From: a virus
DNA length: 45,942 nt
Reading direction: 5' to 3' (one strand)
IMG/VR virus record: IMGVR_UViG_3300020020_000068
Location: 1-45,942 of that record
Each line of letters opens with the position of its first letter. Within the stretch, counting starts at the first letter, position 1. Both the position numbers and the translations under genes were made by a program. Shown here piece by piece: positions 8,780 through 23,092 of this stretch. The notes beneath the pieces are model-generated. The model was given only the letters and a program-made list of their open reading frames with translations. It was not told the DNA's origin and ran no database searches.

Positions 8780-8953
8780 ATGCCTCTAGGTATCGTATTC
8801 TGGGTTCTGTTCATCATCTGGTTACTGTTCTATGGAACATGGAGGTTCGGCGGCGGCGCTTGGCCGCACGGAGAGAATGCAAACGGGTTTCTCTTAGCTC
8901 TCCTAGTTTTCATTCTGGGGTGGCATTCCTTCGGCTTTATCATCCGAGGGTAG
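8780..8953 (+). CDS. Small two-helix membrane protein
   Basis: A 57-residue product follows a strong AAAGGAGACTACC site. It has two hydrophobic helices (FWVLFIIWLLFYGTW and FLLALLVFILGWHSFGF) separated by a Gly-rich turn. It is the last gene of the rightward block and stops 38 bases before the convergent early operon ends. A lysis-associated role is plausible by position, but the family is not recognised. Confidence 0.65.
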   Translation: MPLGIVFWVLFIIWLLFYGTWRFGGGAWPHGENANGFLLALLVFILGWHSFGFIIRG

Positions 8954-8960
8954 TTCCCCG

Positions 8961-8983
8961 GTTCGAAAAAATTCAAGTCGAAC
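8961..8983. terminator. Possible bidirectional hairpin between convergent operons
   Basis: GTTCGA and TCGAAC form a 6-bp stem around an A/T-rich loop in the 37-base gap between the converging late and early operons. The position suits a bidirectional terminator, but the stem is short and lacks a clean T-run, so the call is weak. Confidence 0.25.
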
Positions 8984-8990
8984 ATACGTA

Positions 8991-9209
8991 TCAAACACTA
9001 GAATAGATCGGGTCGATCCTCACCCGGATCTCTAACTCTATTCTATCGTCAGCTTTGACTGTAACATCGGTGTTCCAGGGCTGATGAACTCCGTTTATAA
9101 TCAAGCGCCGATCGAGGTCCTTGGTCGGCTTCATATGAAATGTTGCCGTTTCCTGGAATCCGTTCTCGGATGAGCACTCTATCGCATACATCTTGTATTC
9201 TATATTCAT
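8991..9209 (-). CDS. Small hypothetical protein, end of early operon
   Basis: A 72-residue product begins next to the stop of the helicase-like gene (TAGATG). The sequence is beta-rich, with alternating hydrophobic strands such as R-R-L-I-I-N-G-V and R-I-E-L-E-I-R-V-R-I, and no membrane segment. It is the last leftward gene; its stop codon overlaps a TACGTAT motif at 8985-8991. Function unknown. Confidence 0.6.
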   Translation of the reverse strand: MNIEYKMYAIECSSENGFQETATFHMKPTKDLDRRLIINGVHQPWNTDVTVKADDRIELEIRVRIDPIYSSV

Positions 9210-10439
9210 CTAACCCTCCAGTCTGATCTGTCGTGTGGTCGGCTTATAGCCTTGGAAGTTGTTGTCGGTTACGACAATCTCGAACATTCTTGACTTTACC
9301 ATGATCTCGATAATTTTCATGACTGCGTGTGCTGGGACCCGCTCGCGGAGAAAGTGAACCACGCGGTGCTCTGCAATAGGTTTCTTTTCTTTGGAATAGA
9401 GTGTCCATACGTAGTTCCAGGCCTCTTCCATCGCGGAGGAATCGCCCCCGCTGGTCATGGCCTTAAAGATGTCGGGCATGGAGGCCTCGGCCTCGATTAA
9501 CCAGTTGAGGGCTTCGCTGTAATCCTCGATCGTTATAATCTTGTCGCTGCGTCGCGACAAGGACGCAACCATGCACAGCTTCAACAGATGACTTATTCGC
9601 CGAGCATTGTACGATCGGAGCTTTATATGTTCCGGCTCCGGGCGACAGCCACCTGAAATCCAGGCCTTGATCGCGGTCGCGGCCGGAGTAGTAAAAGCCA
9701 ATCGACCAAACTCACTAGAAATGGTCTTAAGATCATGCAACAGATCAGTCTCCATTCGCTTCATAAAGCTAGACAGAGCCTCTTCTGCGAACGGATCTGG
9801 AACGACCTTATCGCCAGAATAGATAAGGATTGACCGCGAAATAAACCCTTGGTCCCAAGCGCCCGAGGGCATAACGTCGTGCAGATACGAAGGTGTGCAC
9901 GCCCCCAAGAGATTGACCTGAGGGTTCTTGATTTTGATCTTCAGGTCGCGCCCGCGACGCTTTTGCTCGATTGTAAAACCGTCGTATATGTCGGTCAAGT
10001 TGTTCATCAAGGTCGTTTCCCATGCTGGCACCAATACTCCAAGCTCACGAGAGAGGATGGTCAAAGAGTTGAACTCTGCGAAAGGTATTTCGCCGCGAAG
10101 GATAACGCGCCGGACTGCTTCGTGTAGGGCGTCGATCAGTGACGCCGCGGTCATATCAGTCGGGCCGATCATTAGATCAGGGACCTCCCGAATGATCCGT
10201 TCCCCTGCGTTAATGGCTACACCCTTTCCGACTCCAGGTGGACCCACTAAAAACACGTAAAGATTTGGATAAAGGTCCGAACCCATACTCCGGACCCATA
10301 TTTTTCGTTCCATTGCGGCAGCTACAAACGAGATTGCTGCCCACTTGCGCATAAGCGGCGGAGAAGGCAGAATCTCAGTGTATTCCAGGAACGATTCTAT
10401 CCAGCTGCCGAGTCTACGGGCTCCTCCCACCACGGTCAT
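9210..10439 (-). CDS. P-loop replication helicase-like ATPase (DUF3987-like)
   Basis: The 409-residue protein has a Walker A motif V-G-P-P-G-V-G-K-G (65-73) preceded by a conserved N-terminal region (E-S-F-L-E-Y-T near 15-21 and P-S-P-P-L-M-R-K-W near 25-33). A typical Asp/Glu second box follows (about 110-150). The C-terminal third is helical and winged-helix-like. This layout is seen in phage and plasmid replication ATPases often annotated DUF3987 or helicase, which lie beside polymerases. It overlaps the polymerase gene by 26 bases, so the two are probably co-translated. I infer that it loads or acts as the replicative helicase. No separate primase is seen in the genome. Confidence 0.65.
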   Translation of the reverse strand: MTVVGGARRLGSWIESFLEYTEILPSPPLMRKWAAISFVAAAMERKIWVRSMGSDLYPNLYVFLVGPPGVGKGVAINAGERIIREVPDLMIGPTDMTAASLIDALHEAVRRVILRGEIPFAEFNSLTILSRELGVLVPAWETTLMNNLTDIYDGFTIEQKRRGRDLKIKIKNPQVNLLGACTPSYLHDVMPSGAWDQGFISRSILIYSGDKVVPDPFAEEALSSFMKRMETDLLHDLKTISSEFGRLAFTTPAATAIKAWISGGCRPEPEHIKLRSYNARRISHLLKLCMVASLSRRSDKIITIEDYSEALNWLIEAEASMPDIFKAMTSGGDSSAMEEAWNYVWTLYSKEKKPIAEHRVVHFLRERVPAHAVMKIIEIMVKSRMFEIVVTDNNFQGYKPTTRQIRLEG

Positions 10440-11904
10440 CTGGATACTTCGCTAACCCGTTGGGATTGTCTTCTGTTTTATTTGCCCAGTTCCAGCCCAC
10501 TTTAACATCGACCGGAACACAGAAGACTCGTCCCCCCTCCAGTTCGATTGGGACTCGCATTGCCTCGAGCACTTGAGGAATGATCTCATTCTCTTTCTCC
10601 TCGGGGTATTGAATTAACAAAGAGTCGTGCCCTTGCATTAACAGCTGAGCGACACCAAGGTTCCATGTCTTGACCATAGCGTGGTTCATCTCGTCCGCGG
10701 TCATAGACTGGCCTAAAAAGGCTACGGCCTGTTTAAGAGTATCGTTCTCGTCGCGCTTGCCAAAGAACCAGCGCTTACGCAAGAGTGGCGTAACGAGATG
10801 GCCAGTCTCTATTAACTGGGTTTTAACCCACTCGTGGAGCTTGGGGATTGCTGGGAAGGTTCTGAAATAGAGTTCTTGGAACTCTTTGATGACCCCTTGC
10901 TCGATTTTAGTTTGTCGAGACATTTCGAAGGCTGAGCCCATGTAATTAGTACCATGTCCGAGCATCTTGCACATATGCCGTAGACTATGGTGCCGATAGT
11001 ATGGCTGTTCTGCGAGATCTCGATCGCCTTTGCGGTCCCCCGGCCAGGACAAACTGGGTCTCGACATCTTTGCAACTGTCGTGTGAAGGTCTCCCGACTC
11101 ACACGCATTGAGATAAAGGTCATCCCTGTAGACATTCCAACACAAAGCTCCTATGTTGCGGCTGTCAGCCTGTTCGAGGTCGATATTGGCGAATTTCATA
11201 CCAGGATCGGAGATAAATACTCGCCGAAGTCTTTCTTCAATATTCTGGAGATTTCCTCCAGATCCAAAATCGTTAAGGCTAGAAGAGAATCTGCCTGTTG
11301 TAGTGCCAGCAATGTTATAGCTCGTCCTGACTCGGCCGTCGGAGTCAACTTCTGTCTCAAGGACTGATATCTTTTTGCCGATGTCTCTAAGAGCGAGGAT
11401 ATGACTAATAATTGGGTAAGCGATAAAGTGAGATTGGAGTCGTTCGAGGGCTTCGCGATTAACTGTTCTGACAAGCGCACCTCGTTCGTTTCTCTTTCGG
11501 ATTTCAGGCAATCTAATGACATCATATAGAAGAGTCGCGACCAGATTATTGGATCGCCAAGCTTTAGTTTTTCCAGAGTCTTTGAAGGCAGTATAACCTG
11601 CCCCTTCCCAAACGATATTTCGAAGTTGCTCTTCAAGTCTTTCAGTGTCGTTTCGATAGTCAACGATGGCTCTTTGACGTTCTCGTTCATCGATTAGGAC
11701 TCCTCTCATGTTCATCTCAAGCACGGGCGCTTGAAGCGCCCGGCTGAGGTTGTAAGTGCCGCCAGTCAGATTATCCAACTGGGGCAGGGTGGCCTCGAGA
11801 ACCTCCAACGTGACGCAGCAATCGAGGCCATTGTATATCCAGAGCTTCTCCGTCTCAGACTTTAACGTGTCCGGACGGAGAAGATCTGTACGGGTGGTTT
11901 TCAC
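10414..11904 (-). CDS. Family A DNA polymerase, C-terminal part (Exo III plus palm/fingers)
   Basis: This 496-residue protein starts at GTG, overlapping the upstream stop (GTGA). Motif A (I-D-L-E-Q-A-D, Asp242), T-G-R-F-S-S near 203, N-L-Q-N-I (218-222), motif B (R309, K313, Y321) and motif C (Q-G-H-D-S, Asp427) are present and in family A order. Motif C has Ser where many members have Glu. The first 30 residues hold Y24-x3-D28 (W-I-Y-N-G-L-D-C-C), the Exo III motif that normally closes the 3'-5' exonuclease. Exo I and Exo II are absent here; they are in the upstream gene at 12732-13757. So this is the second half of a split polymerase. The two proteins probably associate to give a proofreading enzyme. 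Confidence 0.9.
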   Translation of the reverse strand: MKTTRTDLLRPDTLKSETEKLWIYNGLDCCVTLEVLEATLPQLDNLTGGTYNLSRALQAPVLEMNMRGVLIDERERQRAIVDYRNDTERLEEQLRNIVWEGAGYTAFKDSGKTKAWRSNNLVATLLYDVIRLPEIRKRNERGALVRTVNREALERLQSHFIAYPIISHILALRDIGKKISVLETEVDSDGRVRTSYNIAGTTTGRFSSSLNDFGSGGNLQNIEERLRRVFISDPGMKFANIDLEQADSRNIGALCWNVYRDDLYLNACESGDLHTTVAKMSRPSLSWPGDRKGDRDLAEQPYYRHHSLRHMCKMLGHGTNYMGSAFEMSRQTKIEQGVIKEFQELYFRTFPAIPKLHEWVKTQLIETGHLVTPLLRKRWFFGKRDENDTLKQAVAFLGQSMTADEMNHAMVKTWNLGVAQLLMQGHDSLLIQYPEEKENEIIPQVLEAMRVPIELEGGRVFCVPVDVKVGWNWANKTEDNPNGLAKYPDDRGGRSP

Positions 11905-12155
11905 TTGGTATGCTCTACCTGAGACGCGAGAAGCGTCAGTTGTTTCGCGACGTTATCGTAGTAGTTGGCCAATGCCTGGGCCTCTTGAATAGCACTGGCC
12001 AGGGCCAAGTTGAGTTGGCCTTTGGCCGCAACCACTCCAGGGGACTGGCTACGGGTCCCTCTGACCTGTTCCACTGCCAGCTCTCTGTAGGGATATTGCT
12101 CTTCGGCCCGAGGTGTGTTTGTTACATAGTCTCTCTCGCTAGAAACATCGTTCAT
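11901..12155 (-). CDS. Small hypothetical protein within the split polymerase locus
   Basis: The 84-residue product has a polar N-terminus and a long Ala/Leu/Gln helix (about residues 40-80, containing L-A-L-A-S-A-I-Q-E-A), so a helical bundle or coiled coil is likely. The ribosome-binding site is the recurrent GGAGAGTCCA motif, one base from the ATG. The stop overlaps the GTG start of the polymerase half (GTGA), which supports translational coupling. No known domain is recognised. Confidence 0.65.
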   Translation of the reverse strand: MNDVSSERDYVTNTPRAEEQYPYRELAVEQVRGTRSQSPGVVAAKGQLNLALASAIQEAQALANYYDNVAKQLTLLASQVEHTK

Positions 12156-12156
12156 T

Positions 12157-12166
12157 TGGACTCTCC
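12157..12166 (-). promoter_or_regulatory. Extended ribosome-binding motif GGAGAGTCCA
   Basis: One of eight leftward sites with GGAG(AG)TCCA directly before a start codon; here one base before the 84-residue gene. The part after GGAG is conserved beyond what Shine-Dalgarno pairing needs. Confidence 0.6.
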
Positions 12167-12429
12167 TATTTGATGTGTTCGTTGAAGTACTTACCTATCG
12201 AAGGCGCGCTGATGAAGTCTTTATAGAGTTCCTTACTTCCAGGATAGTCGTGGGTTGTTCCGTCTCTCCGAAACGTGACAGTGATAACCTCGTCTTTCCA
12301 AGCGATGTTGGAAATCGCCGAGCTTGAGACGTTGGTGGACTCGGGCTGTTCGCCCTCTTCGTCCGGGCTGAGAGCCCGCTTGACAGCGGCCGTGCCCGCG
12401 ATACGGGCTATGCTGGGACCTATGGTCAT
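12166..12429 (-). CDS. KTSC-domain protein
   Basis: The 87-residue product ends in a KTSC-like domain: S-S-S-A-I-S-N-I-A-W near residues 34-43, strands V-I-T-V-T-F and T-H-D-Y-P-G, then S-A-P-S-I-G-K-Y-F-N-E-H-I-K at the C-terminus, which matches the K-[G/Y]-x-Y-F-N-x-x-I family signature. KTSC domains are small and occur alone or fused to lysyl-tRNA synthetase, with no settled role; RNA or nucleotide binding has been suggested. Here the gene sits between the two polymerase halves, which makes a link to the polymerase worth testing. Confidence 0.75.
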   Translation of the reverse strand: MTIGPSIARIAGTAAVKRALSPDEEGEQPESTNVSSSAISNIAWKDEVITVTFRRDGTTHDYPGSKELYKDFISAPSIGKYFNEHIK

Positions 12430-12431
12430 TA

Positions 12432-12731
12432 TTACCTCTCATTGTCTAATTCAGCGGAACGCTCATCATAGCCGCGCATAAGGGCATTTGCGAACCATGT
12501 TAGCATCTCACCTTCCGGTACACTACAGTCTGTGTGGATTTTGCAGAACGCCTCGGCCCAATCACGGGCGTCGAAGGATGGCAGCGGCCAGTCTGCGCGT
12601 TCCCTTAGTTCCAAGTCGGCATGGACAGCCTCGTAGTCCGCGTGATCACTGTTCATGATGATCGGATAGCCTTTCGTCGGCGGGTTCAGCCTGACCCAAG
12701 TCTGTCCGTCGATAACTCTCTGTTCACTCAT
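12432..12731 (-). CDS. Hypothetical protein within the split polymerase locus
   Basis: A 99-residue acidic protein with several Trp residues (W12, W43, W58, W78) and no recognised domain. The start has an AAGGAGGACTAA site and lies directly after the stop of the UDG-exonuclease gene. It is the first of three small genes that separate the two polymerase halves. Compact spacing with neighbours argues for a real gene, not intronic filler. Confidence 0.6.
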   Translation of the reverse strand: MSEQRVIDGQTWVRLNPPTKGYPIIMNSDHADYEAVHADLELRERADWPLPSFDARDWAEAFCKIHTDCSVPEGEMLTWFANALMRGYDERSAELDNER

Positions 12732-13757
12732 TTAGTCCTCCTTCTTGATGGTTGTCTTGTGTTTCATTCTCACTGTGAGCTTCCACGCCGCCTCGTCTGT
12801 ATAGACCGTACCCAGATAAGCGAGTCCTTTAGGGCTTTCTGGTTGGAGGGCATGGTGGAGTAACATGGTGTCGTGCAGGGCACTCCGTACTGGTATGCCA
12901 TAACCACGCCACAGTCGATGTATATCGAAAAGCCCATTCTGGAACACTTTGGGAACGTCGGAGTCAAGAACATTTCTCACCCAGCTCCATGCTTCAATCT
13001 CGGCCTCGAGCGAGCCCCAATAGGAGGCATGGGGCTTGCGCAAGTCCTCGAAAGGGACAACTAGGGCCACATCCGTGGCCGGTGCAAAGCCAATGCAGGT
13101 TATCTGGTTGTCTCTGGTTTCGATGTCAACTGCCATCATCCGCGAGCGGCGGATGAACTTTTCCTCGAACCAAGCCAGTTCATGGAGAAGCGGCTCGGTG
13201 TAGACTACCCGTATGGGCCTTCGGACCTCTGGGAACTCCGCTTCTCGCTTGGCTTTTTGGAGGTCGAGGACGGTGACGTGTCGGGACTCATATCCTCCCT
13301 GGAGGATGTAACTAGGGTGGTAGGTTGGGAGGACCTTAAGTCCTGGGATAACTGGAGATTCAGAAACGGCACCCCGAAGCTTCGATACTCGACCGTCCCG
13401 AAGTAGAGCCCAGGAGGCAGTTCCCCCAAGAGCGACCGCAATGTTTGGCTTAACCGCTCTAAGTTCTGCGTAGAGTCGTTCGAGTTCTCCGAGATACTCA
13501 TCTCGAATGTATTTACCACTTGATAGGGATGGTAGGACATGACGAACCTCTTTCTTGGTTGCACATAGATTGTCGATCTTGTTTGTAGGCTTTGGACGCA
13601 GGTTGAACACATTCGTCAAGAAACATTCGTGCCGGGCGATACCAGCGTCTTTAAGCATCGAGTTCAGCTGCCATCCCGCCGGGCCTACAAAGGGCATACG
13701 CTCACGTTCTTCGTGCTCGCCCCAGGCCTCGCCGACGAGGGCGATCTTTATGGCCAT
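12732..13757 (-). CDS. UDG-like domain fused to first part of 3'-5' exonuclease (split polymerase, N-terminal half)
   Basis: Residues 1-170 resemble the uracil-DNA glycosylase superfamily, family 4/UdgX-like: G-E-A-W-G with P-F-V-G-P-A-G (9-28), L-T-N-V-F-N-L-R-P (48-56), A-V-A-L-G-G (107-112) and Y-H-P-S-Y (146-150). The N-terminal C-x-x-C of classical iron-sulfur family 4 enzymes is missing. Residues 200-341 are a DnaQ-like exonuclease fragment with Exo I (D211-x-E213) and Exo II (N274, D278), then H-D-T-M-L-L-H-H. The chain ends at D341, before Exo III, which is found at the start of the gene at 10414-11904. The expected role is uracil recognition or excision plus proofreading in replication. 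The 10-base overlap with the upstream HTH gene and its ATG support the start. Confidence 0.85.
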   Translation of the reverse strand: MAIKIALVGEAWGEHEERERMPFVGPAGWQLNSMLKDAGIARHECFLTNVFNLRPKPTNKIDNLCATKKEVRHVLPSLSSGKYIRDEYLGELERLYAELRAVKPNIAVALGGTASWALLRDGRVSKLRGAVSESPVIPGLKVLPTYHPSYILQGGYESRHVTVLDLQKAKREAEFPEVRRPIRVVYTEPLLHELAWFEEKFIRRSRMMAVDIETRDNQITCIGFAPATDVALVVPFEDLRKPHASYWGSLEAEIEAWSWVRNVLDSDVPKVFQNGLFDIHRLWRGYGIPVRSALHDTMLLHHALQPESPKGLAYLGTVYTDEAAWKLTVRMKHKTTIKKED

Positions 13758-13948
13758 TTAGGTAGACTCTCAATGAACCGCTTCATACTTGCGGTGGTTA
13801 TACGAGACTGTTTAGGTCCAGTCTTAACAAGATGGAGCTTGCCCTCACGGACTAACTCATAGAGTTTGGTGTGTCTAATACTGAGTTTGGCACATGCCTT
13901 TGCGGTTGACATAAGTGCTGGTTCAAGTTCCTGTTCGATCTTGCGCAT
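13748..13948 (-). CDS. Excisionase/MerR-type helix-turn-helix protein
   Basis: This 66-residue protein has the pattern of the excisionase family winged-helix domains: T-A-K-A-C-A-K-L-S-I-R-H-T-K-L-Y-E-L-V near 15-33, then G-K-L-x-x-V-K-T-G-x-x-x-S-R-I. Such proteins bind DNA as regulators or recombination directionality factors. No integrase is present, so a regulatory role is more likely than excision. The start has a GAGGAG site; it overlaps the stop of the methyltransferase gene and the start of the polymerase half. Confidence 0.75.
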   Translation of the reverse strand: MRKIEQELEPALMSTAKACAKLSIRHTKLYELVREGKLHLVKTGPKQSRITTASMKRFIESLPKWP

Positions 13949-15251
13949 GATTGATCAACTCCTCTGCTTTTCTTAGGCTGCGGAATTTGGTGAGGGCTTC
14001 TCGGGCTCGGTCGGCAAACTCCATCTTAAGTTCGAGCCCCAGGACATGCTTAGCACCGAGGCTTTCTGCCGCTCGCAACGCACTTCCAGAACCACAGGTG
14101 GGGTCAAGCATAACTGTATTCGAGTCAACCAGCATCGAGAAGAAATGCCGCAGCATAGGTTCCGGTTTTTCAGACATGTGGCGTTCTCTAACTGTTGGAG
14201 CCGCATAAGCATTTGCAACAGCTCGGACAATCTTTCGATCTCCTCTAGCTCCAATAAAACAGGTCTCGTACACTTGACGCGGACCGCGCTCGGGGTCAGG
14301 GATAATTCCAGCGCCATCTGATTTCATCCATATGAGAGGTTGAGGGTTGATGTCCCAGCCCATCTTCTCAAGGGCTCGGGCGGTCGGTTCGTAGAGTCGA
14401 TTGTCACCTTTCCGCATGGCAAACCAGAACATTAAGTGTGCCGATGGAGTGCAAATCTTCTTCGTTGCCGTGTGGAGCGCTTCGATGAGCGCTTCCCACG
14501 TTTCTTTTGTATCTTCGTAGCCTCCATGCGCTGTTGCACCACCTTGGTTAAAGGTGTCAGCACCGACTCCGTAGGGGAAATCACAGTGTATAAAGTTAAA
14601 TCGGGGCGCAATATGACCGTGTACCCATTGCTTAAAGTCCACATTAAGGACGGAGTCTGGAGGCGCGGCCTCCTCGTTCCCTTCTCGGACACCGATCGTC
14701 TCCTTCATTTTGCTGAGGGCCTGCTCGTCCTGACGTTCTCGGGCGCGCCTTACGATACCCTCGGCGGTTGAGAACTTGGGGGCCTCGGTAACCATTTTGT
14801 TGCCCTTGGCAAGCTCCTCGGCGACGTAGAGCATGTCGCGAGTTTGCCGCTCTGATAGACCAATGGCAGTGCCGGTATCGGCAGCTATCCACTCGAATTC
14901 TTGGCCCTGCCGTAGAAGATGATACTCTCGAACGGCTCGACATTGGTCCTGCCAAGTGATGTCCTTCCGCTTGATGTTCTCTTCGAGTTCTATTGCCTGG
15001 AGTCGTTCAGGCTCGACCTCATCGACATACTGCGCGGCAATCGAGGTCCACCCAAGGCGCTGACAAGCGCTGAGTCGTCGTTCGCCCGCAACGAGTTCGT
15101 GCTTTCGTGTTATAACGATCGGGTGAATGAGGCCGAGCCGGCTGATTGACTCGGCCAGTTCAGAGATCGCAACGAGATCACGCCGCTGTCGGTTCTCTCG
15201 ATCAACGAGGATCGAGGATACTAAGACATGGTGGAAGCTGCCAGAGGTCAT
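13923..15251 (-). CDS. ParB-like domain fused to DNA adenine/cytosine-N4 methyltransferase
   Basis: The start at 15251 is preferred because its ATG follows the upstream stop after one base; a longer form from 15296 is possible but has no ribosome-binding site. The product is about 442 residues. The first 110 form a ParB/Srx-like domain (L-V-A-G-E-R-R-L-S-A-C near 53-63). A short helical segment follows, then a methyltransferase with a catalytic motif C-D-F-P-Y-G (about 223-228) and an AdoMet motif L-D-P-T-C-G-S-G-S (near 388). This arrangement, in which the catalytic motif precedes the AdoMet motif, is that of beta-type enzymes. ParB-methyltransferase fusions are frequent in phages and protect DNA from restriction. 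The target site is not predictable. Confidence 0.85.
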   Translation of the reverse strand: MTSGSFHHVLVSSILVDRENRQRRDLVAISELAESISRLGLIHPIVITRKHELVAGERRLSACQRLGWTSIAAQYVDEVEPERLQAIELEENIKRKDITWQDQCRAVREYHLLRQGQEFEWIAADTGTAIGLSERQTRDMLYVAEELAKGNKMVTEAPKFSTAEGIVRRARERQDEQALSKMKETIGVREGNEEAAPPDSVLNVDFKQWVHGHIAPRFNFIHCDFPYGVGADTFNQGGATAHGGYEDTKETWEALIEALHTATKKICTPSAHLMFWFAMRKGDNRLYEPTARALEKMGWDINPQPLIWMKSDGAGIIPDPERGPRQVYETCFIGARGDRKIVRAVANAYAAPTVRERHMSEKPEPMLRHFFSMLVDSNTVMLDPTCGSGSALRAAESLGAKHVLGLELKMEFADRAREALTKFRSLRKAEELINHAQDRTGT

Positions 15252-15252
15252 T

Positions 15253-15609
15253 TCAGGGCGTCCGTGCGAGACTATGAAAGCGTATACGGTGCTCATCTGA
15301 ACAGAATTCAGCGTCTACCCGACGACCAGTTCCTGGTCCCGCTTCGAACCACTCATTACAGTGACGGCATTGCTTACCTTTGATTCCACCGTAAATCCGC
15401 ACTTCCCTCGGTGCAGTTAACGGTATGGTTGGCGGGGATTCCCCGTGAGCCATATGATTATCTGTCCATTCCCCACACCAGTCCTGATCTACATTTACAA
15501 GAGGGAAATGCGTCGTAGGGTGTGGCGGTCGCCTTCGACAAAGACCTCTGAACGGCGCAACAGGTCCATATAGCTCGACGTAGATGCATTCTCTACAGCG
15601 TTTAACCAT
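15253..15609 (-). CDS. Zinc-ribbon-like protein with two cysteine pairs
   Basis: The start at 15609 is chosen for its strong AAGGAGAG site; a longer reading from 15690 would place that site and a strong hairpin inside coding sequence. The resulting 118 residues contain C-R-E-C near the start, then C-R-R-R and a single C-G in the first half, and C-R-H-C with E-F-C-S-D-E-H in the second half, consistent with two zinc-binding units. The second unit resembles the C-x-x-C-...-F-C-S-x-x-C/H pattern of small zinc fingers. The gene also contains one copy of the 31-nt hairpin (15424-15454) in antisense. Function unknown. Confidence 0.65.
   Translation of the reverse strand: MVKRCRECIYVELYGPVAPFRGLCRRRPPHPTTHFPLVNVDQDWCGEWTDNHMAHGESPPTIPLTAPREVRIYGGIKGKQCRHCNEWFEAGPGTGRRVDAEFCSDEHRIRFHSLARTP
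15424..15454 (+). repeat. 31-nt hairpin repeat, copy A
   Basis: First of three related 31-nt elements with the shape stem-GG mismatch-stem-triloop. Here the loop is ATT and two pairs are G-U type if the plus strand is read as RNA. It lies inside the zinc-ribbon gene, antisense to it. Confidence 0.6.
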
Positions 15610-22272: not shown

Positions 22273-22539
22273 TCAATCCCTGTAGTCGTCGGGCTTGGGC
22301 AGCACCGGACAAAGAACGTTACCGAGACCTTTAGAGATGCTTTTCTCAAACTTTGCCCACGCGTCCGTAACGGCAGTTGCAAAGTCTTCGTTTTTCACTT
22401 CGACAGAAACCTCGATGCCATTGCCTTTATAGGTAAAGTGGACACCCCAGGTGTTGCCTAAATAATAGCCACCGCGCTCGATCCCGACTGTGACATCTTC
22501 GAGGGTGGCGAGACGATTGAGAATTTCGATAGTCTTCAT
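22273..22539 (-). CDS. Hypothetical alpha/beta protein
   Basis: The product has 88 residues: helix T-I-E-I-L-N-R-L-A-T-L, strands around W-G-V-H-F-T-Y and I-E-V-S-V-E-V, then a helix rich in Ala/Lys. The start has a GGAGAGTCCA site. No membrane segment or known motif. It lies in the early gene run before the helicase. Confidence 0.6.
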   Translation of the reverse strand: MKTIEILNRLATLEDVTVGIERGGYYLGNTWGVHFTYKGNGIEVSVEVKNEDFATAVTDAWAKFEKSISKGLGNVLCPVLPKPDDYRD

Positions 22540-22913
22540 ATGGACTCTCCTTCGGAGGGAAGTTTGCGGAACTCGATTTTGAGCTTGTATCGGTACCTAC
22601 TGATCGCAAGATTGAGGGTTTCCAACATGCCCTCAGATACCCCTCTATCTACATAAACAGCGACAACGGCAGCACAGTTTGACGTTGCGGCTGCAGCAAG
22701 CCAGGCCTTTTCACATTCGAAGCCTATAGTACGTTCGCTCTCGGTGCTATCGTCAAGAAGCTGCGGATAGAGAAGATGCGAAGCGAAAGGGGCTTCGCCG
22801 CGCGACAACGAGTCTTTCATACAGGCTTTCGCGTAGTCTGTGTTGATGTATGTATGGCCCCTGTAGGGAGAGAGAATGAGGGTTGGCGGGCGATCTACTG
22901 AGTTATGGGTCAT
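22536..22913 (-). CDS. DUF7768 / nucleoside deoxyribosyltransferase-like protein
   Basis: The start at 22913 has a GGGAGGACCC site and overlaps the upstream stop (ATGA), giving 125 residues. The pattern L-I-L-S-P-Y-R-G near 13-20, then A-C-M-K-D-S-L near 31-37 and A-P-F-A-S-H-L-L-Y-P-Q-L near 43-54, followed by G-F-E-C-E and V-Y-V-D-R-G-V-S-E-G-M, resembles phage nucleoside 2-deoxyribosyltransferase-like (DUF4406/DUF7768) proteins. Those enzymes or their relatives process nucleosides or NAD-like molecules. The exact substrate cannot be inferred. Relatives of this fold occur in phage nucleotide metabolism and counter-defence. Confidence 0.65.
   Translation of the reverse strand: MTHNSVDRPPTLILSPYRGHTYINTDYAKACMKDSLSRGEAPFASHLLYPQLLDDSTESERTIGFECEKAWLAAAATSNCAAVVAVYVDRGVSEGMLETLNLAISRYRYKLKIEFRKLPSEGESI
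22541..22550 (-). promoter_or_regulatory. Extended ribosome-binding motif GGAGAGTCCA
   Basis: Fourth of eight such sites, one base before the start of the 88-residue protein. Confidence 0.55.
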
Positions 22914-23092
22914 CGAAGGGTCCTCCCTGCAGCTATCCACCGAAGAAATTTCAGATCCTCTCCGTTTTTGGGGTCGTGGTGGGTCCTGGTGCAACGCTCG
23001 ATAGGCCAGCGTTCCGCACGAAGGGCGATATGGACTCGAAGCTCTTTAGAGTTTTCGAAGAGCATTCCACAAGTACATTTCAACTTGGACAC
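22910..23092 (-). CDS. Small zinc-finger-like protein
   Basis: The product has 60 residues from a GTG start behind AGGAGGATAAA. C-T-C-G near the N-terminus, a later C in E-R-C-T-R-T-H-H and several His residues suggest a zinc-binding unit. It overlaps the next gene by ATGA, which supports expression. No family is recognised. Confidence 0.55.
   Translation of the reverse strand: MSKLKCTCGMLFENSKELRVHIALRAERWPIERCTRTHHDPKNGEDLKFLRWIAAGRTLR

Follow-up and report, generated by a model that had tools for sequence, protein, structure and literature searches.

A family A polymerase gene cut between Exo II and Exo III

Two genes of the virus record IMGVR_UViG_3300020020_000068 probably encode a single replicative DNA polymerase of family A in two subunits, with a proofreading site that would be composed of both chains and a split that would have been made by an endonuclease. 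This reading draws on sequence comparisons and structure models. The DNA analyzed, hereafter the window, is the whole stretch of 45,942 nucleotides (positions 1 to 45,942 of the record), and the features discussed are listed in Table 1.

Table 1 Features of the polymerase region of the window and, in the last four rows, relatives with a split in the palm
Feature	Position	Strand	Remark
DUF3987/phage primase-like gene immediately downstream of the polymerase	9210..10439	-	PF13148, phrog_14296
P0002, polymerase gene, 496 aa: Exo III helix at the N-terminus (Y24, N25, D28), followed by thumb, palm and fingers	10414..11904	-	
P0003, gap gene, 84 aa, function unknown	11901..12155	-	Stop overlaps polymerase start (GTGA)
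P0004, gap gene, 87 aa, KTSC domain	12166..12429	-	PF13619, E=1.4e-8
P0005, gap gene, 99 aa, function unknown	12432..12731	-	No hits in Pfam or PHROG
Shine-Dalgarno of the following gene, in-frame C-terminal K-K-E-D of the UDG-Exo protein, AAGAAGGAGGACTAAATG	12732..12752	-	
P0001, 341 aa: UDG-like domain and exonuclease core (Exo I D211/E213, Exo II D278)	12732..13757	-	
Palm-split locus, L003	5662-6216		
Palm-split locus, L128	5648-5779		
Palm-split locus, L133	5252-5497		
Palm-split locus, L139	5729-6572		

In Pfam, P0001 matches UDG (PF03167, E=2.4e-21) over residues 4-154, where the motifs GEAWG and H147-P148 are retained, and DNA_pol_A_exo1 (PF01612, E=1e-5) over residues 208-321. P0002 matches DNA_pol_A (PF00476, E=1.8e-32), and its polymerase motifs are intact (A, D242; B, R309/K313/H317; C, H426/D427). 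Exo I, II and III and Pol motifs A, B and C are all present and conserved, spread over two chains that together follow the UDG, exonuclease, family A polymerase order of phage UDG-Exo-Pol polymerases. The pair also spans, in order, a single PHROG polymerase profile, phrog_17 (P0001 at 481-796 and P0002 at 804-1240), on which the cut falls in the linker between Exo II and Exo III. The original prediction had assigned the UDG-like domain, Exo I and Exo II to the first gene and Exo III and the polymerase to the second, with the cut between Exo II and Exo III. The residues are as it claimed, the ORFs together with the Pfam and phrog_17 matches bear out both reading frames and both preserved gene ends, and phrog_17 coverage and motif positions agree on the place of the cut. 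The first half does not carry an Exo III of its own, as no conserved Y-x3-D was found in P0001 C-terminal of Exo II. The two ORFs are in different frames with three genes between them and so do not read as a single polypeptide; P0002 starts with GTG.

Residue H317 of P0002 (about 10954-10956, minus strand) aligns by eye with Phe762 in the O helix of E. coli Pol I; it is invariant across the split clade and is also found in 23 of 24 continuous groups. Immediately upstream of the polymerase operon, the window encodes a ParB-like domain fused to an N4/N6 DNA methyltransferase (13923-15296, minus strand). Continuous relatives also have ParB-like or methyltransferase genes upstream of the polymerase and, like the window, a primase or DUF3987 gene downstream of it.

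Breadth and phylogeny of the split

Scans of IMG/VR returned 99 loci of the split arrangement in a first parse; removal of repeated contigs left 85 that share the cut, and these fall into 47 groups at 90% identity. Bacterial genomes were scanned as well and yielded one metagenome-bin contig. The isolated Caulobacter phage Kuura, found by tblastn, is cut at this place too and has other small genes in its gap; a BamHI digest had served to check its assembly (PMC9959647). An assembly or sequencing error at 11904-12731, which would have undone the original prediction, is excluded, because the gaps of relatives differ in content and an isolate shares the cut. One relative (L026, 4532-6003) has even its polymerase half spread over two frames, probably through a sequencing error or mutation.

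Unsplit UDG-Exo-Pol homologs with the same domain order, for which the original prediction had proposed a search, do exist (780-860 aa). They are frequent elsewhere in the tree, a quick tree built on 75 groups, where 24 continuous groups are uninterrupted at the same site. Placing the split on this tree requires three changes, each forced by well-supported branches. One clade (support 99) holds 45 groups, including the window and Kuura, and has no continuous members; two further split loci, L079 and L155, are nested in a continuous clade (support 100), and the closest relatives of L155, namely L209 (60% identical), L210 and L211, are continuous. By sequence comparison, most split pairs thus belong to one ancient, lineage-wide clade, the deepest order of the tree being unsure given the long branches of L005, L006 and L078. 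The L079 and L155 splits may represent one or two insertion events.

Conservation and modeling of the divided proofreading site

The residues D211, E213 and D278 of the first protein and Y24, N25 and D28 of the second show no variation across the 100 split rows, and the five catalytic ones (all but N25) are identical in all continuous rows as well. Invariance is otherwise rare: across 45 non-redundant pairs, only 30 of 341 positions in P0001 and 50 of 496 in P0002 are invariant, the site residues being among them. Chance can be excluded, since the arrangement recurs in 85 dereplicated contigs and 100 rows show no change at any of the five catalytic positions. Short elements at the new ends, a C-terminal R...TIK in the first protein and an N-terminal MKxIxT in the second, also look to be kept at the amino-acid level. 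In the C-terminal tail of the UDG-Exo protein, synonymous variation was seen only at T336-I337, which is why conservation of these two residues looks to be at the protein level.

Structure models were obtained with AlphaFold2. In one relative, L062, the halves share a frame and are 141 nt apart, and we read through the stops to produce one chain with a nonsense joint; the alignment had 87 rows from split genes only, ten of them read-throughs, with no continuous homologs. The model reached a pLDDT of 88.2 and a pTM of 0.85, values to be read with the facts that the halves are linked by a peptide and that AlphaFold2 is familiar with Klenow folds. The 53-residue joint (332-384) is disordered in the model and the Exo III region is a confident helix. 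Foldseek alignments of the model to structures of E. coli Klenow spanned about 700 columns, and the target TM scores were 0.73-0.76. As the polymerase part amounts to about two thirds of Klenow, such scores would need the exonuclease part to be in place, and the model supports docking of the halves into a Klenow-like fold. P0001 modeled alone gave a pLDDT of 87.9 and was confident until about residue 300; residues 301-330 scored 54-61 in lone P0001 versus 78-91 in the joined L062 model, a comparison between different proteins.

Conservation and models together support the view that a working exonuclease site would require both products. We consider it improbable that the halves instead act apart, the first as a UDG-type repair protein or one that binds ssDNA, the second as a polymerase that does not proofread, with the exonuclease remnants inactive. 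The retained UDG motifs and the prediction that each half folds alone at least partly would suit such a division of labor. A dead exonuclease would, however, lose residues, and all catalytic residues on both chains are invariant among sequences as far apart as those of Kuura and the window, which are about 36% identical; moreover, no use of the Exo III helix outside an exonuclease is known.

One chain or two

Phage polymerase genes often carry group I introns, and for MEP401/402 an intron has been put forward to explain the split polymerases (PMC10580990), so the gap could be imagined as a self-splicing intron or another removable element, with a single continuous polymerase as the product. 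This seems very unlikely. No Rfam match was obtained in the window, its gap or eight relatives, even at E values up to 1, and in five relatives (L029/L030, L050, L054 and L158) no gene lies between the halves, the gap being zero or negative with stop and start overlapping as TAATG, ATGA or GTGA; the combination of such gap-free relatives with the lack of an Rfam intron leaves little room for splicing or bypass. In addition, the gap genes possess start sites of their own, and both halves run beyond the linker with conserved ends of their own. Pfam scans of P0001-P0005 detected no intein domain, and only short tails of the halves extend beyond homology, which does not fit a split intein.

Cargo genes and a Shine-Dalgarno in the gap

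The gap of the window is 827 nt long and holds three coupled ORFs (Table 1). In tblastn, Streptomyces phage proteins matched P0005 weakly and over only part of the sequence (E 2e-4), and no homolog was found in the gaps of the fetched relatives; for P0003, a single relative was found, in the gap of L008. The KTSC gene is the commonest gap gene among relatives (35/85 contigs, 14/47 groups), and DUF7768 occurs in 14 contigs (10 groups); DUF3102, DUF1937/4406 and unknowns make up other gap content, and six contigs have a gap without any ORF of at least 38 aa. The KTSC protein was considered as an obligatory third subunit and rejected, as only 14 of the 47 groups have the gene. The window also encodes a DUF7768-type relative (phrog_24212) at 22536-22994 (minus strand), away from the polymerase; as the same family occupies the gaps of other phages, this cargo appears to move between places.

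Whatever gene comes next, its start is mostly at most 4 nt from the UDG-Exo stop. At the end of the UDG-Exo gene in 44 relatives, the median anti-Shine-Dalgarno energy is -8.55, with values of -5 or below in 91%, and about 5% of same-gene sequence windows match this strength. We had regarded the conserved C-terminal tail as purely a docking motif, a proposal that was scaled down because its last four residues encode the Shine-Dalgarno.

Origin of the split

Endonuclease genes lie in the gaps of 9 of the 85 contigs (HNH_3 in five, LAGLIDADG-like in two, a second HNH type in two). The window gap has none. Both splits inside continuous clades, L155 and L079, contain a free-standing HNH gene, and in the case of L155 the nearest relative, L209, is uninterrupted. 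The linker of continuous polymerases is purine-rich (WKDEGKEW) and often resembles a ribosome-binding site, with a median anti-Shine-Dalgarno energy of -7.5 (about the best 13% of sequence windows), a weak hint that it might have been strongly pre-adapted for that role.

The composite enzyme could also have been split by an ordinary insertion or frameshift, with homing endonucleases arriving later. We regard this as the less likely course, although one to take seriously: the majority of gaps contain unrelated small genes and that of the window lacks an endonuclease, the linker WKDEGKEW is often already ribosome-binding-site-like before any split, and the same ambiguity is raised for gene 43 of phage 25 (PMC2988022). 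The HNH genes of L155 and L079, in splits that lie within continuous clades, argue the other way, as does the recurrence of endonuclease genes in main-clade gaps.

Other breaks were seen in this polymerase family. A second split position is in the palm, after NLQN(I/L)P and before motif A, with cargo that varies (Table 1); in L139 it is a methyltransferase-like ORF, read by eye. A third break, between UDG and Exo I, is found in L137 (4697-4950) and L131 (1414-1667) with an HNH_3 endonuclease-like ORF. L079 has a second HNH gene (8888-9319), of the same type as its gap gene, just downstream of the polymerase.

Proposed model and significance

In the two-subunit, endonuclease-split model that we favor, a free-standing homing-endonuclease gene would have inserted into the exposed, tolerant linker between Exo II and Exo III, splitting the gene, after which coupled translation of the halves would be followed by assembly of the composite exonuclease site. 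Of the two subunits, the first would provide the exonuclease beta-sheet, which holds Exo I and Exo II, along with the UDG-like domain; the second would bring the entire polymerase, preceded at the extreme N-terminus of that subunit by the Exo III helix. The subunits would dock and build a proofreading site from both chains, like that of the one-chain homologs. In the lineage of the window, the endonuclease gene would mostly have been lost or replaced, turning the gap into a slot for changing cargo (KTSC, DUF7768 and others) expressed from the Shine-Dalgarno hidden in the final codons of the UDG-Exo gene. Physical assembly, exonuclease activity and an endonuclease origin of the window's own lineage are what we infer from this evidence. 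More tentatively, with somewhat less than an even chance, the enzyme could be an obligate two-subunit family A replicase that proofreads only when both proteins are present, with R...TIK and MKxIxT as docking parts evolved after the split; the Pol subunit could then act alone, free of exonuclease, and the subunit ratio could set fidelity.

If correct, this would be a natural example, long-lived and widespread, of an active site that two genes encode between them, and the enzyme would be a replicative polymerase. It would account for the annotation of such phages as encoding a hypothetical protein and a polymerase lacking proofreading, and a two-part polymerase could have its proofreading added or omitted. 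Comparison is possible with continuous relatives and with L155 and L079, whose splits interrupt the same linker and seem younger, and this makes the survival and adaptation of split enzymes directly testable.

Comparison with known systems

The continuous UDG-Exo-Pol polymerases (phrog_17; Microcystis phage Mel-JY34, Desulfofustis phage, ctMlz233) share with the window the domain order, the Exo and Pol motifs and the downstream primase/DUF3987 gene. They are, however, single chains, and the place of their linker of about 19 residues is taken in the window by a stop codon, three genes and another start. The original prediction had called a split in this place joined to a UDG-like domain unusual; since the continuous relatives have an N-terminal UDG as well, that domain is the ordinary part. 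We found no earlier report of an Exo II/Exo III cut in the open-access literature searched. Kuura genes 029 and 026 (36% and 37% identity) are cut as in the window, with two small genes in the gap that are unrelated to those of the window. They are annotated apart, as a hypothetical protein and a DNA polymerase, and the split goes unremarked in the annotation and in the consulted passages of the paper.

Proven precedents for assembly in trans come from T4-type phages, in which the split halves of Aeh1 nrdA and phage 25 gene 43 yield active enzyme (PMC2988022). Gene 43A/43B of Aeromonas phages 25 and 44RR and Aeh1 nrdA resemble the window in being replication genes whose two parts act together and are separated by an endonuclease gene or a spacer (PMC2988022), but 43A/43B is a family B polymerase and nrdA a ribonucleotide reductase, both cut elsewhere, whereas the window encodes a family A polymerase. 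Closer in family is the split PolA of the OM43 phages MEP401/402 (PMC10580990), which, like that of the window, is a family A polymerase divided into two ORFs that flank a small one. According to the description in that paper, the cut there is inside the polymerase domain, and the first ORF, unlike that of the window, comprises the whole exonuclease and part of Pol; the split type of L003, L128 and L139 appears similar to it. Split phage polymerases were already known, and it is the position of the cut, the UDG partner and the breadth that appear to be new here.
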